Part shown: in pieces, positions 30,797-38,126 of the stretch
Numbering within the stretch: position 1 is the stretch's first letter
Layout: every line of letters begins with the position of its first letter
NCBI RefSeq assembly: GCF_017355785.1
Contig: NZ_JAFEWE010000004.1
Location: forward strand, 372,001-436,000
DNA: 64,000 nucleotides
Direction of reading: 5' to 3'
Origin: Desertivirga arenae
GTDB taxonomy: Bacteria > Bacteroidota > Bacteroidia > Sphingobacteriales > Sphingobacteriaceae
Made by a program: the position numbers and the translations under genes
The notes under the pieces: generated by a model
Databases searched by the model: none
The model's input: only the letters and a program-made list of their open reading frames with translations
Told to the model about the DNA's origin: nothing

Positions 30797-31834
30797 ATGA
30801 GAAAATTATATATCGCTCTTCTTTGCGCTGGCATTCTTGCAGCTTGTTCAAAGAAAGAAAACAAGTCCGTCTATTTTTTATCGCCTGAAGAAGGAACTAA
30901 TGTTTCCCTTGGGAAAACCATCGCTCTTAAACTAGACATCGAGGCGGGATCATTTGATTCAATTCAATATCTGGTTGACACGATTAACGCGGGAAGCAGG
31001 AAAGATACAACCCCCGTTGATTTCGCCACAACAAACAGTACTTTGGGTACTCATATTATCACCGCAAAAGTTTTTAAAGGAGGTGCTGCTGAAGAGGTCA
31101 CCACGAACATTGTAGTTCTTCCCTCTGCGGCTCCTGTTAAATACAGCTATTCTGTTGTTAATACTTTTCCTCATGATACCTCTTCATTTACGGAAGGTTT
31201 GGAATATAAAGACGGAGTAATCTATGAAAGTGATGGATTGAAGGGCGAGTCAACCTTGAGGATTGCTAGTTTAGAAACAGGTAAAGTTATTAAGAAGATA
31301 GATCTCGCACCTCAATATTTTGCAGAGGGAATTACGGTTATTGATGATAAGATAATCCAGATTACTTACCAGGAAGGTGTAGGCTTTGTGTACGATAAAC
31401 GCACTTTGCAGAAGTTGAAGGAGTTTCCTTATCAGGCAGGAAGAGAGGGCTGGGGCTTGGCATTTGACGGTAATAAGGTCCTTAATTCAGATGGAACAAA
31501 TAACATATACTATTTAAGTAAGGATACTTATCAAAAGGAGAAAACCCTGGAGGTTTACGACAATAAAGGAGCTGTCAAAAACCTGAATGAGCTTGAGTTC
31601 ATTGAGGGTAGAATATTCGCTAATGTATGGATGACGAACAGGATTGTGATCATTAATCCTGCTAATGGTGCTGTAGAAGCTGAACTTGATATGTCAAGCC
31701 TTTATCCCGAAGCAGATGATATTAATTCTGACGCAGTTCTTAACGGCATTGCATGGGATGAAAAAGGCCGGAGATTATTTGTAACAGGCAAGAAGTGGGA
31801 TAAACTTTTCGAGATAAAAATAAAGAAGGACTAA
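30797..31834 (+). CDS. Glutaminyl-peptide cyclotransferase (glutamine cyclotransferase) lipoprotein
   Basis: A 345-residue lipoprotein with signal peptide and lipobox ILAAC (C17). After a beta-sandwich-like N-terminal part (about 20-110) comes a five-bladed propeller of the glutamine cyclotransferase family, which turns N-terminal glutamine of proteins into pyroglutamate. Typical blocks are FPHDTSSFTEGLEYKDG, ESTLRIASLETGKV, GREGWGLAFDG and LNELEFIEGRIFANVW. It probably acts on exported proteins on the envelope's periplasmic or outer face. The gene is 11 bases after yraN, so it is likely in the dnaG operon, and ends in a terminator that overlaps its stop codon. Confidence 0.9.
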   Translation: MRKLYIALLCAGILAACSKKENKSVYFLSPEEGTNVSLGKTIALKLDIEAGSFDSIQYLVDTINAGSRKDTTPVDFATTNSTLGTHIITAKVFKGGAAEEVTTNIVVLPSAAPVKYSYSVVNTFPHDTSSFTEGLEYKDGVIYESDGLKGESTLRIASLETGKVIKKIDLAPQYFAEGITVIDDKIIQITYQEGVGFVYDKRTLQKLKEFPYQAGREGWGLAFDGNKVLNSDGTNNIYYLSKDTYQKEKTLEVYDNKGAVKNLNELEFIEGRIFANVWMTNRIVIINPANGAVEAELDMSSLYPEADDINSDAVLNGIAWDEKGRRLFVTGKKWDKLFEIKIKKD

Positions 31835-31847
31835 GCCTTCTTTATTT
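31818..31847. terminator. Bidirectional terminator between the cyclotransferase and Rieske genes
   Basis: A perfect 12-bp stem (31818-31829 with 31836-31847) closes a six-base loop that includes the TAA of the cyclotransferase gene. A- and T-rich arms allow it to work on both strands. Confidence 0.8.
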
Positions 31848-32286
31848 AACTCTTTGTTGCTGTGAGGGTTGTGCCGGTAAGCGAAGTCGAATAGATCTTC
31901 AAGGCTCTAACAGTTCCGCCTCCCAATGGCTGTGAAAGCACTGTCCCATTTGATCCAAAAGTGGCTTTGTGATTGTCGCATTCAATTTTATTCGATTGCC
32001 AGTTTAAATTTCCGCCTTGGTGTGGACATATTGCTTCTGTTGCAACAAAAGCTGAAGTTTCAGAACCTGCGGCTATTCGTATAAATAGCACACCATTAAC
32101 AGTTTTCTGGCTTCCGACACTAGCAAGGGTAGAAATGTCGACACTAGACGTATTGCCGTTATTATTATTCCCTCCCGGAGCAGGTTCATCCTCGCTGCCA
32201 CCTTTACTACAAGCGGTAAAGCAAGATCCTGTACATACCAATGCAAGACCTATTCCCAATGATTTTAAAAATTCGTCTCTTTCCAT
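31846..32286 (-). CDS. Rieske-type [2Fe-2S] protein, exported, probable lipoprotein
   Basis: A 146-residue protein with an N-terminal export signal and a cysteine at 26 (FTAC) that could be lipidated; Asn/Gly-rich linker residues (about 27-48) follow. The Rieske cluster ligands are CPHQG (C87, H89) and CDNHKATFG (C103, H106). The second box lacks the disulfide cysteines of bc1-type Rieske proteins, so it is closer to the low-potential ferredoxin-like type. It presumably carries electrons in the periplasm. It is the last gene of the sigma/anti-sigma/YceI/DUF5777 operon; the gap to the gene before it is 10 bases. Confidence 0.88.
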   Translation of the reverse strand: MERDEFLKSLGIGLALVCTGSCFTACSKGGSEDEPAPGGNNNNGNTSSVDISTLASVGSQKTVNGVLFIRIAAGSETSAFVATEAICPHQGGNLNWQSNKIECDNHKATFGSNGTVLSQPLGGGTVRALKIYSTSLTGTTLTATKS

Positions 32287-32296
32287 AGTTTGTCGT

Positions 32297-33220
32297 TTAA
32301 TAGATTTTCGAGTTTATGTCCGGGTTTTTTGATTTGTGCAAACTGAAGTTTCTTGACATGGTGAAGCCAAAGCGTACTCCTCCATCGGTCCAGGATTTCA
32401 GAGTGTTAGGTAGGAAATTGTTTTCGAGGATAAATGGAGAATTCATGAAGTTTAAAGCAAAGACATGGCCGCCTGTTTCAATCTCTAAGCCGAGGCCTAA
32501 AGGGTTGTAATAGGTGTTGGTTAATTTATCTGAGCGGGATATTGTTGACCATTGATAATCTGCGATGAGGGAAAACCTTTTATTCAGCTTTAATCTTCCA
32601 GCAATACCTGCAACAAACATTCCTTTTTCATCTACTGGATCCGTTACTACAGATCTTACGAGATAGCCGGGAGACAGTTGAAGGGATAGGATATTCGAGA
32701 ATTTCCGGGCAATTAATGCCTGAAAAATGAAAGAGCTTCTCTCGCCTGTATTTTTAAACTCGTTGTTTTTATCCTCGCGGGTTACCCATGCTCCTTGTGC
32801 AAAAGCAGTAGCACTGATAGGAACGGTTTTACTTTGCTGGAGCACCTTATGCTTCAGAAAAAGATTATAAGTTTCGTCCTGCTTGCTTCTGCCTATCCCA
32901 AGGGTAAACCGGTCGGTAACCCCATAGTCAAACCCAATGTAAAGATCCGTAGCAACATCAAGTCCATAAAGCGTATGAGAACCACCAAAGTCGCCGCCAA
33001 TGTCGCCAAATCGATGTCCGATCAGTAAATTCAGATCGTACTTTTTTTGTGTTTCAGTGGACTGAGAAAGAACAATGCGAGTTGACTTAAACGTTGCATT
33101 TACAGACTCATTACTACTCTTATCTGTCATTTGATTGAGTAAGGAATCAGTTTCCTGAGCTGCAACAGAGGATGAAATAGTCAGGAACACCAAAAGTGAC
33201 TTAAGATTTCTAGAGATCAT
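32297..33220 (-). CDS. DUF5777-family outer-membrane beta-barrel protein
   Basis: A 307-residue protein with a signal peptide (to SSVAAQ, about residue 22) and a body of alternating amphipathic strands ending with an aromatic strand, as in small outer-membrane barrels. The block LNLLIGHRFGDIGGDFGGSHTLYGLD is characteristic of the DUF5777 family, which has no known function. Its gene begins one base upstream of the YceI stop, in an operon with Rieske and YceI proteins, which suggests a link to electron or quinone handling in the envelope. That link is inference. Confidence 0.8.
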   Translation of the reverse strand: MISRNLKSLLVFLTISSSVAAQETDSLLNQMTDKSSNESVNATFKSTRIVLSQSTETQKKYDLNLLIGHRFGDIGGDFGGSHTLYGLDVATDLYIGFDYGVTDRFTLGIGRSKQDETYNLFLKHKVLQQSKTVPISATAFAQGAWVTREDKNNEFKNTGERSSFIFQALIARKFSNILSLQLSPGYLVRSVVTDPVDEKGMFVAGIAGRLKLNKRFSLIADYQWSTISRSDKLTNTYYNPLGLGLEIETGGHVFALNFMNSPFILENNFLPNTLKSWTDGGVRFGFTMSRNFSLHKSKNPDINSKIY

Positions 33221-33221
33221 A

Positions 33222-33785
33222 TTATTTAGTTACTTGGTTTAAGGTAGCATCTATATCAACGGCAATTACTTCGGCTATTTTGGTCATCACCAGTTTGGGA
33301 ATCTTTATATTATGATCCGCACATGCGACGTTAAAGTTGGATAACAGCTGCACTTTTCCATCTTTCACCCTTAGTTTCCCATTTATTGTTCTCTGTTTAT
33401 CCACACCATGCATAGACAAGTTACCTGAAGCTGATACATTATATTCACCATCCCTGGAGAAGTCCAGATCTTGGTTTATTTTACCTTTAAAGCGGGCCAT
33501 AGGGAACTTATCACTTTCCAAATAGTTCTCATTGAAGTGTTCCTGCATAAGACCCTTCTCAAACTGAAAACTTTTTACCGCAACCTGAAACGCAATTTCT
33601 CCAGTTTTGGATATAAGTACTGCTGCTCCCTTATTCGATACTGCTTTTATATCCTCGATGGGAGTAGAGGAAAAGAACTTAATCTTAGCATTGCTCGTAC
33701 TATAGTTAACCTGGGCTTTTAATAAAGAAGGGAATAGCAGACTGAATAGGAGAGCTGCTCTTTTAATGTTTTTTAGTTGTTCCAT
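33222..33785 (-). CDS. YceI family periplasmic protein
   Basis: A 187-residue exported protein (signal peptide ending near SLLKAQ, residue 25) of the YceI family, an eight-stranded lipocalin-like barrel that binds isoprenoid quinones or similar long-chain lipids. Visible pieces are NYSTSNAKIKFFSSTPIEDI, MQEHFNENYLESDKFPMARFKG and GNLSMHGVDKQRTINGKL, all typical. It overlaps the anti-sigma/barrel gene by 23 bases and is one base from the DUF5777 gene. Ligand identity is not shown by the sequence; the neighbouring Rieske protein makes a quinone attractive. Confidence 0.88.
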   Translation of the reverse strand: MEQLKNIKRAALLFSLLFPSLLKAQVNYSTSNAKIKFFSSTPIEDIKAVSNKGAAVLISKTGEIAFQVAVKSFQFEKGLMQEHFNENYLESDKFPMARFKGKINQDLDFSRDGEYNVSASGNLSMHGVDKQRTINGKLRVKDGKVQLLSNFNVACADHNIKIPKLVMTKIAEVIAVDIDATLNQVTK

Positions 33786-34989
33786 AAGTCATAGTTAAGC
33801 TTATACCGCTCGATTTTAATTTGACTTTTCCTTCGCCCACTCCTCCAAGCGGTAATTTAACGTAAGGCTCAAGTCCAAAGCGAATATTTTGATTAGTTGA
33901 TTTAAAGGTGTATCTACCAGAAATGCTTGCTACTCCAAAATAGCTTTGATTGGCGTTAGTCTTTTTTAACAGAAAGTCGTTCACTCCAGATTCCGGCGTA
34001 TATTCGAACAGGTATTTCTCTTTAAGCATTAGGTAAGATGAAAGGCCTCCAGTAAGAGAAATGCTCCTGTTCTTTAAGGACCATACGGGAACAGACAGTT
34101 GCAGCGGAATCTCAAGAACATTACAAGAAGCATCAATATTGTATATTTCGCTGGCGCGTGCAGGATTTCTAAGAGCATAATCAAGAGCTTCCGCATCGTA
34201 TTTTTTAACCCCATAACGAGCGCCAGTGCTAAAGGTCAAATTTTTCCAATTAACATTAATCAGAAGGCCAACGTTTAAATCCCCTCTTTTACCTGCCAGC
34301 GACCGTGTAGAACTAAAATCTGGTCCGGCTGAAAAAGTGAAACCAAGTGAAGGCTTCAACAGCTTGCTTTTCGGCGGTTGGGAAGAATCTAAAGGACGCG
34401 TTGTTTTAACTTGCCTTTCAGGAATTGATAACTCAGAATTGGAAACGACACCCTCTGCTGTCATAACCAGAAGATCAAGATGATGCAAAGTGTCTCCACC
34501 CGTAGTTGAATAGGTATTATTTATTGATCTACTATCAGCTGGATCTACACTATTGAAAGAATCCCCTCCATGTGAAGACTGCTTTTGAACTTTTAAGTCT
34601 GTAGGTGTTTTACTGTGGACTGCTATTGCAGACGGATCTTCGCCTTGTCTTTGAGATACTTTAGATCTGGATCTATTAGTATTTGCAGGGTTAGTAGCTC
34701 TATTGTCCTTGACGCTAATGTTAGGTTTAACAGCTATAGAAACAGAATCTACAGGTTTCGTTTTCCTGGCAGTGATAGAATCTTGGTTTCCATCATATAA
34801 AAATATGCCTCCTGCAAGAAATAACAGAGTACATGCAGCTATACTTAAATTCCTTAGAAAGATAATACGATCCTTCTTACGGAGTTTTTTCTCCATAAGA
34901 ACCCAGGCCTCTTCTTCAAATTCATAGTCGAAGTTTTGCGACTTTTCTTTGAAGAGCCTGTCGAATTCGTTATCTGACATATCTTTCAT
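33763..34989 (-). CDS. Anti-sigma-like protein with C-terminal outer-membrane-barrel-like domain
   Basis: A 408-residue protein in three parts. A charged cytoplasmic N-terminus (about 1-40, SDNEFDRLFKEKSQNFDYEF then EEEAWVLMEKKLRKKDR) has the anti-sigma style of Bacteroidota. One membrane helix covers about 43-64. A long Ser/Thr/Asn-rich linker (about 70-215) leads to a beta-rich C-terminal domain (about 218-408) that looks like a PorT/OMP_b-brl barrel. Lying 6 bases downstream of an ECF sigma gene, it probably holds that sigma factor at the inner membrane. How a barrel-like domain works on an inner-membrane-anchored protein is unclear. Confidence 0.75.
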   Translation of the reverse strand: MKDMSDNEFDRLFKEKSQNFDYEFEEEAWVLMEKKLRKKDRIIFLRNLSIAACTLLFLAGGIFLYDGNQDSITARKTKPVDSVSIAVKPNISVKDNRATNPANTNRSRSKVSQRQGEDPSAIAVHSKTPTDLKVQKQSSHGGDSFNSVDPADSRSINNTYSTTGGDTLHHLDLLVMTAEGVVSNSELSIPERQVKTTRPLDSSQPPKSKLLKPSLGFTFSAGPDFSSTRSLAGKRGDLNVGLLINVNWKNLTFSTGARYGVKKYDAEALDYALRNPARASEIYNIDASCNVLEIPLQLSVPVWSLKNRSISLTGGLSSYLMLKEKYLFEYTPESGVNDFLLKKTNANQSYFGVASISGRYTFKSTNQNIRFGLEPYVKLPLGGVGEGKVKLKSSGISLTMTYGTTKKH

Positions 34990-34995
34990 CAGCTA

Positions 34996-35553
34996 CTAAT
35001 ATTGTTCTTTGATCTGTGCTCCTACTGTTTCTTTCAGCATTTCCTTTAATTGTTGCCGGGCTTTGAATAAATTTGATTTAGATGTTCCTACCGAGATTGA
35101 CAGCAATTTTGAAATCTCCTCGTGATTATAGCCGTCTATCACAAACAGATTGAACACGGTACGATAACTTATTGACAGTCTTTGAACCAGTTTTATAAGA
35201 TCATTGTAATTCAACTTCGATAATATGTTCTCTGTGTCCTCTGAGTCGTGATTATTATTTAACTCTTCCATTTTAAGCCGTTTTATTCTTGCCCTGTAGT
35301 GATCAATAGAGGTATTAATCATAATGGTGCTAAGCCAGGATTGGAATGGGCGACTTTCATCTACCTTGCTGATACTGTTGAATACTTTTAAAAAACCATC
35401 GTTGACCATCTCAATGGCCTCTTCTTTATTTTCAGAATAGCGCAAACAGATCTTCATAGAAAAACCGAAGAAGAGCTTGTACAACTCTTTCTGGCTTTTT
35501 CTATCATTTGCTTTACAGCCTGTTAAAATTTTCTGAAAGTAAATAGGATCCAT
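34996..35553 (-). CDS. ECF-family RNA polymerase sigma factor
   Basis: A 185-residue sigma-70 factor with only regions 2 and 4. Region 2 spans about 15-85 (LYKLFFGFSMKICLRYSENK ... VNDGFLKVFNSI, PFQSWLSTIMINTSIDHYRA) and region 4 about 118-175 (SYRTVFNLFVIDGYNHEEIS, then KLLSISVGTSKSNLFKARQQ). It heads a five-gene operon with anti-sigma-like, YceI, DUF5777 and Rieske genes. A GGCAACC and CGTA pair upstream could be an autoregulated promoter. It is expected to direct transcription of this operon and perhaps others. Confidence 0.93.
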   Translation of the reverse strand: MDPIYFQKILTGCKANDRKSQKELYKLFFGFSMKICLRYSENKEEAIEMVNDGFLKVFNSISKVDESRPFQSWLSTIMINTSIDHYRARIKRLKMEELNNNHDSEDTENILSKLNYNDLIKLVQRLSISYRTVFNLFVIDGYNHEEISKLLSISVGTSKSNLFKARQQLKEMLKETVGAQIKEQY

Positions 35554-35580
35554 TGATTATTTACCCAATATATCGAGAAG

Positions 35581-35607
35581 TACGGTGATGTAGAAGCAGG
35601 GGTTGCC
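35581..35607 (-). promoter_or_regulatory. Candidate ECF-type promoter of the sigma/anti-sigma/YceI/DUF5777/Rieske operon
   Basis: On the minus strand GGCAACC (+ strand 35601-35607) is followed after 16 bases by CGTA (35581-35584). AAC ... CGT spaced 16-17 bases is the common pattern of ECF promoters. It lies 28-54 bases upstream of the sigma gene's start codon. No TAnnTTTG box is seen here. Inferred from pattern only. Confidence 0.4.
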
Positions 35608-35649: not shown

Positions 35650-35680
35650 TAAAAAAGGGAAGCGCTGCTTCCCTTTTTTA
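35650..35680 (-). terminator. Intrinsic terminator of pgi
   Basis: A perfect 14-bp stem (35650-35663 with 35667-35680), loop gct, directly after the pgi stop codon on the minus strand, with A-rich/T-rich arms. Confidence 0.85.
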
Positions 35681-37403: not shown

Positions 37404-38126
37404 TTATAGTTTGTCACCTTTTTTAATTGCACAGCCACTTAGAGGTTTATCACCGATGACAATGATTGCTGAGTATTTATAATTCCTGTCAGACATTCCA
37501 TCATTACAATTTTCTTTTTTGATGGTAATTTCCGCTGTTCCCTCGTCATTACTGGTTTTATATAAATAGTTTCCATCACTTATTTGCGGCTTTCTGTAGG
37601 AGAATCTGTACGCTTTGCCGGCTGCAACATCTTTAATGGCAATAATATTTTCGTCAGGTATAATCTCAAGGGACCAGAAGGGCTCGGTACCCAGTGCGAT
37701 AAATTCATAATTATAGCATTCGGAATCGAACGACTTCGGTTTTACCTCTTTTACTTCGGACACGATGATGGTATCCCTGCCATTTGTTATGGCAGGTTTT
37801 ATTATTCCCGATATTTTTGCAATAGAACTTTCGTATGAGTAGGAGAGGGCTACCTGGTTCTTTTGATAATTACTTTTAAGAAGCTCGTTCTCGTCGTTAA
37901 GGATAAAGATCTTCCCTGAGCAATCAATTAAAAGTTCGTTATCCTGAACAGGAAGGTATCTGCCAGCAAATTGTTGATTGATAATAGAAGGCCTTCCAGC
38001 GGTATCTGAATAAGTTGTATCTTCAGAAATATTGAGGGCGGCAATAGTGCCAGGAGGATTGGGGTTAGATTTACAACCCATAATTGCAAGAGCTATAGAA
38101 AAATAGAAGGGCTTTAGATATCTCAT
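37404..38126 (-). CDS. COG3650-like lipoprotein of unknown function
   Basis: A 240-residue lipoprotein: signal peptide, then AIMGC (C18). The C-terminal half (about 140-240) contains GTEPFWSLEI, SDGNYLYKT and a final MSDRNYKYSAIIVIG ... LSGCA stretch, which together are the marks of the COG3650 uncharacterised family. The two cysteines C207 and C232 approximately could form a disulfide. The N-terminal half (DNELLIDCSGKIFIL) is less typical. No function is known. The gene diverges from prfB, whose start is 70 bases away. Confidence 0.7.
   Translation of the reverse strand: MRYLKPFYFSIALAIMGCKSNPNPPGTIAALNISEDTTYSDTAGRPSIINQQFAGRYLPVQDNELLIDCSGKIFILNDENELLKSNYQKNQVALSYSYESSIAKISGIIKPAITNGRDTIIVSEVKEVKPKSFDSECYNYEFIALGTEPFWSLEIIPDENIIAIKDVAAGKAYRFSYRKPQISDGNYLYKTSNDEGTAEITIKKENCNDGMSDRNYKYSAIIVIGDKPLSGCAIKKGDKL

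Follow-up and report, generated by a model that had tools for sequence, protein, structure and literature searches.

The window analysed here, a stretch of 64,000 nt from Desertivirga arenae (contig NZ_JAFEWE010000004.1, 372,001-436,000), contains five minus-strand genes encoding an extracytoplasmic function (ECF) sigma factor, an anti-sigma factor ending in a barrel, a YceI protein, a DUF5777 protein and a Rieske lipoprotein (Table 1). An earlier interpretation of the window's letters (hereafter the sequence-only reading) had described these genes as an operon with gaps of 6, -23, 1 and 10 bases, and the five open reading frames (ORFs) are present with exactly these spacings. Each component is of a known family; what appear to be undescribed are the regulon with its promoter, the alternation of Rieske proteins and cytochromes, and the link to DUF5777. 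Sequence comparison gives good support for the module and its regulation; the chemistry and physiological role given below are inferred.

Table 1. Coordinates of the operon, its flanking features and two related DUF5777 clusters (window positions unless a locus is named)
Feature	Location	Strand	Description and evidence
Sigma gene	34996-35553	-	ECF21/Das-like, 185 aa; Pfam Sigma70_r2 and r4_2, 42.9 and 48.4 bits
Anti-sigma-barrel gene	33763-34989	-	36-homologue alignment; AlphaFold model; OmpA/NspA-type barrel; homology to Bacteroides Dma
YceI gene	33222-33785	-	Lipocalin-like, exported, 187 aa; Pfam YceI, 46.6 bits (cut-off 23.7)
DUF5777 gene	32297-33220	-	12-strand outer-membrane barrel, 307 aa; PF19089, 266.6 bits
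Rieske gene	31846-32286	-	[2Fe-2S] lipoprotein, 146 aa; Pfam Rieske, 28.5 bits (cut-off 20.3)
Operon promoter	35579-35607	-	GGCAACC-N16-CGTACT, predicted -35 and -10 elements of the cognate ECF sigma factor
Terminator-like hairpin, upstream limit	35650-35680		14-pair stem; between the phosphoglucose isomerase and sigma genes
Terminator-like hairpin, end of unit	31818-31847		12-pair stem; overlaps the end of the convergent glutamine cyclotransferase gene
DUF5777 cluster	L112:6371-11449		4Fe-4S protein, NrfD, cytochrome c and cytochrome lipoprotein; Pfam-tested
DUF5777 cluster	L080:5840-12044		Same type, with a YceI-domain lipoprotein; assigned by gene size and order

Sigma factor, promoter and predicted regulon

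By homology, the regulatory half of the operon is a member of the Bacteroidota family of ECF21 sigma factors and dual membrane-spanning anti-sigma (Dma) proteins, known from Dma1 and Dma2 and their ECF21 sigma factors in Bacteroides thetaiotaomicron (PMC13088901). The ECF sigma gene, encoding regions 2 and 4, directly adjoins that of the anti-sigma factor, a protein that matched no Pfam family. Alignment with its homologues gives the latter the four-part plan of Dma proteins, comprising a helical domain at the N-terminus, one transmembrane helix, a long tether of hypervariable sequence and a barrel at the C-terminus; in the AlphaFold model these appear as helices to residue 72, disorder over residues ~73-205 and an eight-strand barrel at 214-403, which matches OmpA at Z 16.8 and NspA at Z 16.7. 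Profiles of the two proteins also recovered das2/dma2-type genes as homologues at the same two loci, the sigma profile finding the sigma gene at 1e-37 to 1e-42 and the anti-sigma profile the Bacteroides Dma at 1e-11 to 1e-14; we infer that these Bacteroides-like operons are dma2-like because they contain DUF4943, a published neighbour of dma2. It is the combination of the four-part plan and these profile matches that places the regulatory half in the known family. Hence the suggestion of the sequence-only reading that the module is undescribed fails for its regulators, and holds for the output genes, which do appear to be so. The anti-sigma factor would be expected to inhibit its cognate sigma factor.

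The ECF-like promoter proposed in the same reading was borne out by comparison with other genomes. GGCAACC-N16-CGT(A/G) is a near-invariant motif common to the regions upstream of homologous sigma genes (57 upstream regions), a loose form of which is present in 43 of the 57, versus 4.75 in shuffled sequences (maximum 12). When GCAACC was required, the two boxes were separated by exactly 16 nt in 38 of 42 matches, and the site in the window fits the motif with this spacing. The strict pattern has two copies in the 6.19 Mb genome to which the window belongs, one of which is the operon promoter; the other, on contig C9, falls within a coding sequence and was discarded as a site.

The motif follows the module even when its parts are separated. 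In three genomes (G043, G034 and G068) the sigma pair does not lie beside the redox genes. There the motif is found upstream of the redox operon (a YceI or cytochrome operon) despite the distance of the pair, and it occurs at the sigma location too: it precedes the sigma gene itself in G034 and G068, and a divergent PF03640 gene beside the sigma gene in G043 and G068. The sequence-only reading's notion of a redox-type envelope module with its own sigma factor is upheld by this presence of the promoter at both places, and the genes very probably constitute a co-regulated module. A PF03640 lipoprotein gene on contig C12 of the window genome (L258:1387-2253) has the motif ~38 nt before its start, with a single mismatch in the -35 box, a spacing of 16 nt and the sequence CGTAAT. 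Because this gene carries a one-mismatch version of the operon promoter, the regulon of the window's sigma factor is predicted to consist of two operons, the redox operon and the PF03640 lipoprotein gene.

A conserved core with an interchangeable redox lipoprotein

DUF5777 was present in 94 of 151 sampled genomes of the family and 98 of 247 genomes of the phylum, and in none of 14 controls. Its neighbourhoods were surveyed in two partly overlapping samples, one of 99 DUF5777 loci and one of 79 loci from named genomes (178 together). In the former, YceI was near DUF5777 at 77 loci, and a sigma/anti-sigma pair lay no more than six genes away at 30; the position of the lipoprotein was occupied by a c-type cytochrome alone at 60 loci, a Rieske protein alone at 23, both at one and neither at 15. 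The corresponding figures in the 79-locus sample were 23 for cytochromes, 49 for Rieske proteins, none for both and seven for neither. Hence the 178 partly overlapping neighbourhoods include 83 with a c-type cytochrome and 72 with a Rieske protein, the two meeting at a single locus; these counts treat L053 and L027 as cytochrome loci, and the cytochrome calls represent CxxCH-type motifs, which had Pfam support in the examples tested.

The exact five-gene order was found at 14 of the 99 and 24 of the 79 loci, corresponding to 30 distinct loci in Pedobacter, Mucilaginibacter, Daejeonella, Arcticibacter, Pararcticibacter and further relatives, which is far from chance. Across Bacteroidota, however, the five genes together are not the evolutionary unit: the five-gene set as such is an arrangement of the Sphingobacteriaceae, and the part conserved in evolution is YceI and DUF5777 with a single redox lipoprotein, which is most commonly a c-type cytochrome.

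In a midpoint-rooted FastTree phylogeny of 163 DUF5777 proteins, three changes suffice to explain the distribution of Rieske proteins and cytochromes. The simplest reading of this tree would be three independent replacements, the direction being read as cytochrome-to-Rieske because cytochromes surround each Rieske clade. As the lipoprotein has been repeatedly replaced in this way, with a Rieske protein taking the place of a cytochrome, a one-electron redox function is the likely role of its slot in the operon. A second tie between DUF5777 and electron transport comes from a distant clade of the family, which adjoins a 4Fe-4S protein, NrfD, a soluble cytochrome c and a cytochrome lipoprotein (Table 1); further loci of this clade were assigned by gene size and order. 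Proteins of the PF03640 (Lipoprotein_15) and CHRD families are recurrent extra members at DUF5777 loci.

Some Flavobacteriaceae (Gillisia, Christiangramia, Zunongwangia and Salegentibacter) have YceI, DUF5777 and Rieske genes together, mostly without the sigma pair (L128, L129, L149, L158, L160, L161, L163-L165 and L167). The DUF5777 proteins of these loci nest within the Pedobacter-type clade, which makes it likely that the output genes were passed on horizontally, without their regulator. Within its own genus the operon is accessory, since DUF5777 is absent from two congeners (G001 and G002), as is any closely similar anti-sigma gene.

Properties of the barrel, the Rieske lipoprotein and YceI

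The DUF5777 protein is modelled with high confidence as a 12-strand outer-membrane barrel (pLDDT 88.6), closest to KdgM, FapF, NanC and COG4313 (Z 16.5 to 17.6); a profile search of solved structures found no relative by sequence, and no paper giving DUF5777 a function was found in the literature searched. Together with the lipoprotein, this barrel makes the module outer-membrane associated, such that the periplasm, where it had been placed by the sequence-only reading, is not its sole site. All 97 family-model sequences have H69, H252 and R290, and many basic residues are nearly as constant; conservation was measured on this family-model sample, the motif invariance in L124-L203 being partly due to the search patterns. 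A conserved EIETGGHVF turn was also identified, the ETGGH part of which would, by counting strands in the model, lie where strands 10 and 11 end on the periplasmic side. Given this placement the turn may be a docking site, and with H69, H252 and R290 it forms a possible docking or metal site.

The Rieske protein has a lipobox cysteine at position 26 and the CxH and CxxH ligands of a cluster (C87, H89, C103 and H106), all five residues being invariant in an alignment of 20 members that includes the window. Its profile matches PetC-type Rieske structures, the best at 5e-21 (5cxm). The cysteine pair that forms the disulfide of bc1/b6f-type proteins (CxHxGC ... CxCH) is missing, the window having CPHQGG ... 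CDNH, and both cysteines are kept only in L113 and L117; because of this absence, the protein's potential is likely to be lower. Its N-terminus resembles a degenerate Tat motif, and TatC is present in the genome. In the Rieske-like lipoproteins at L044:8093-8527 and L058:6734-7177, the second ligand motif is C-x6-H (e.g. CSQQDAAH) rather than C-x2-H. The YceI domain scores above its curated cut-off (Table 1), and the profile matches solved YceI proteins, the best at 3e-10; by likeness to these relatives, the window's YceI may bind an isoprenoid or quinone, and ubiquinone-8 has been found in YceI proteins (PMC9113575). Elsewhere in the window, a lipoprotein-like ORF of 240 aa (37404-38126) adjoins the phosphoglucose isomerase gene and is without a Pfam match.

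Proposed function and comparison with known systems

The five genes probably serve an electron chemistry of the envelope. In the mechanism we propose, the Dma-type anti-sigma factor would span both membranes and hold the ECF21-type sigma factor until a signal at the outer membrane releases it, whereupon the freed sigma factor would transcribe its own operon from GGCAACC-N16-CGT(A/G), as well as the PF03640 lipoprotein gene elsewhere in the genome. YceI would carry an isoprenoid quinone or similar lipid, with which the lipoprotein, a Rieske protein here and a heme c protein in most relatives, would swap single electrons, and the DUF5777 barrel would act as an outer-membrane port, anchor or docking partner. 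When oxidants or other insults damage the envelope, this system may serve to maintain a lipid-soluble antioxidant or electron shuttle in its reduced state at the outer membrane, through a chemistry comparable to that of BcnA-LcoA, with a lipoprotein electron carrier standing in for cytochrome b561. The gene set, the promoter and its presence at both linked and unlinked loci, the protein architectures and the Rieske/cytochrome alternation are evident from the sequences; the putative elements of this scheme are the inhibition of the sigma factor by its anti-sigma factor, the quinone ligand, the electron transfer and its direction, and the protective role. Taken whole, a dedicated envelope-stress regulon for BcnA-LcoA-like electron transfer at the outer membrane is a tentative reading, close to evenly balanced, and a quinone or lipid-radical role for the module is possible but doubtful. 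A fuller version, speculative and distinctly unlikely, would be a hitherto unrecognised outer-membrane electron-transfer system of Bacteroidota, in which interchangeable Rieske or c-heme lipoproteins recharge a pool of quinone bound to YceI, the DUF5777 barrel exposes this pool to quench radicals or oxidants at the outer leaflet, and the Dma anti-sigma factor switches the system on when it senses outer-membrane damage. Several observations weigh against the proposal: the window operon has no gene for a partner that would face the quinone, such as cytochrome b561 or NrfD; YceI ligands are unpredictable from sequence; Rieske clusters and c-hemes could instead serve sensing or structure; and charged residues predominate among the strongly conserved positions of DUF5777, so that a pore for ions or anions suits them no less well than a port for lipids.

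The strongest rival explanation, although unlikely, is that the module transports a solute or lipid, with DUF5777 as a channel for small substrates, YceI as a periplasmic carrier, and the lipoprotein as a redox sensor or modifier of the substrate. The resemblance of the barrel to substrate-specific 12-strand channels, its conserved basic and acidic residues, and the lipids bound by YceI in known structures all fit such a role, but neither metabolic enzymes nor an inner-membrane transporter are linked to the module, and a one-electron cofactor is kept even where an unrelated protein has taken over, pointing to a need for the redox function as such. The proximity of an outer-membrane barrel to a redox lipoprotein could alternatively represent a conduit of the porin-cytochrome type, passing electrons across the outer membrane to external acceptors in extracellular electron transfer. 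This would accord with the NrfD, ferredoxin and cytochromes c of related clusters, and with the acidic residues that follow the lipobox in several lipoproteins, which could mean surface export. However, Mtr-type systems enclose a multiheme cytochrome within a barrel of >20 strands, and the 12-strand, KdgM/NanC/FapF-like model is far smaller than these MtrB-type housings, while the partners have one or few hemes (mostly monoheme or diheme) or a single Rieske cluster. Hence the barrel is too small, and a conduit is quite improbable.

A similarly low probability attaches to a regulator of vesiculation or surface remodelling like Dma1 and Dma2 of Bacteroides, in which the redox genes would be minor passengers. 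The sigma and anti-sigma genes are homologous to the dma2-type pair, and deletion of dma1 or dma2 raises outer-membrane vesicle output in B. thetaiotaomicron (PMC13088901). Yet in the genomes searched, promoter matches near known genes centre on the redox module, the remainder occurring at about the rate of reversed controls, and the published partners in the dma2 operon, DUF4943 and DUF4858, differ from the YceI, DUF5777 and redox lipoprotein of the window. It is very improbable that the Rieske domain has lost its cluster, leaving a purely structural lipoprotein, as its weak Pfam score (28.5 bits) and the altered ligand spacing of the one divergent lineage (L044 and L058) might suggest, given that all four ligands are invariant in the 20 aligned members, the profile matches PetC-type proteins, and another redox protein takes its place elsewhere.

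No description of the module was found in the literature searched on YceI together with Rieske proteins, CHRD or PF03640 families, Pedobacter or Bacteroidota, in which subscription papers were thinly covered. Dma-type sigma switches are a recent discovery with targets little known outside Bacteroides, and in this case the sequence suffices to identify a promoter, a sigma gene and the small regulon that they predict. The repeated swap of heme for iron-sulfur lipoproteins beside the same two partners gives DUF5777 a testable redox role in the envelope, in a phylum, Bacteroidota, whose outer-membrane oxidative defence is poorly described.

The system combines features of several that are known. 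With Das1-Dma1 and Das2-Dma2 of B. thetaiotaomicron (PMC13088901), it shares a sigma gene followed by an anti-sigma gene, the pair heading the operon, and an anti-sigma domain, transmembrane helix, long disordered tether and C-terminal eight-strand barrel, with detectable homology in both proteins; unlike the window's sigma gene, the Bacteroides dma2-type sigma genes examined have no GGCAACC-N16-CGT upstream, where it was sought. The Rieske protein has the exported CxH...CxxH domain of PetC/b6f-type proteins, but is a lipoprotein without a transmembrane anchor or the disulfide cysteines, and is outside any bc/b6f complex. DUF5777 has the barrel size and fold of the KdgM, NanC, FapF and COG4313 channels, and differs from them in its lack of sequence similarity to solved structures and its link to redox lipoproteins and YceI. 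The closest parallel to the proposed chemistry is the Burkholderia YceI protein BcnA, which with the cytochrome b561 LcoA guards membranes against lipid peroxyl radicals (PMC9113575). No cytochrome b561 gene accompanies YceI among the genes flanking the window operon, and the role of the module here is putative. Both systems encode a YceI-family lipocalin with a redox protein and are linked to envelope stress; the redox partner is a membrane cytochrome b561 in BcnA-LcoA and a Rieske or c-type lipoprotein here, where the module adds an outer-membrane barrel and ECF21/Dma control.

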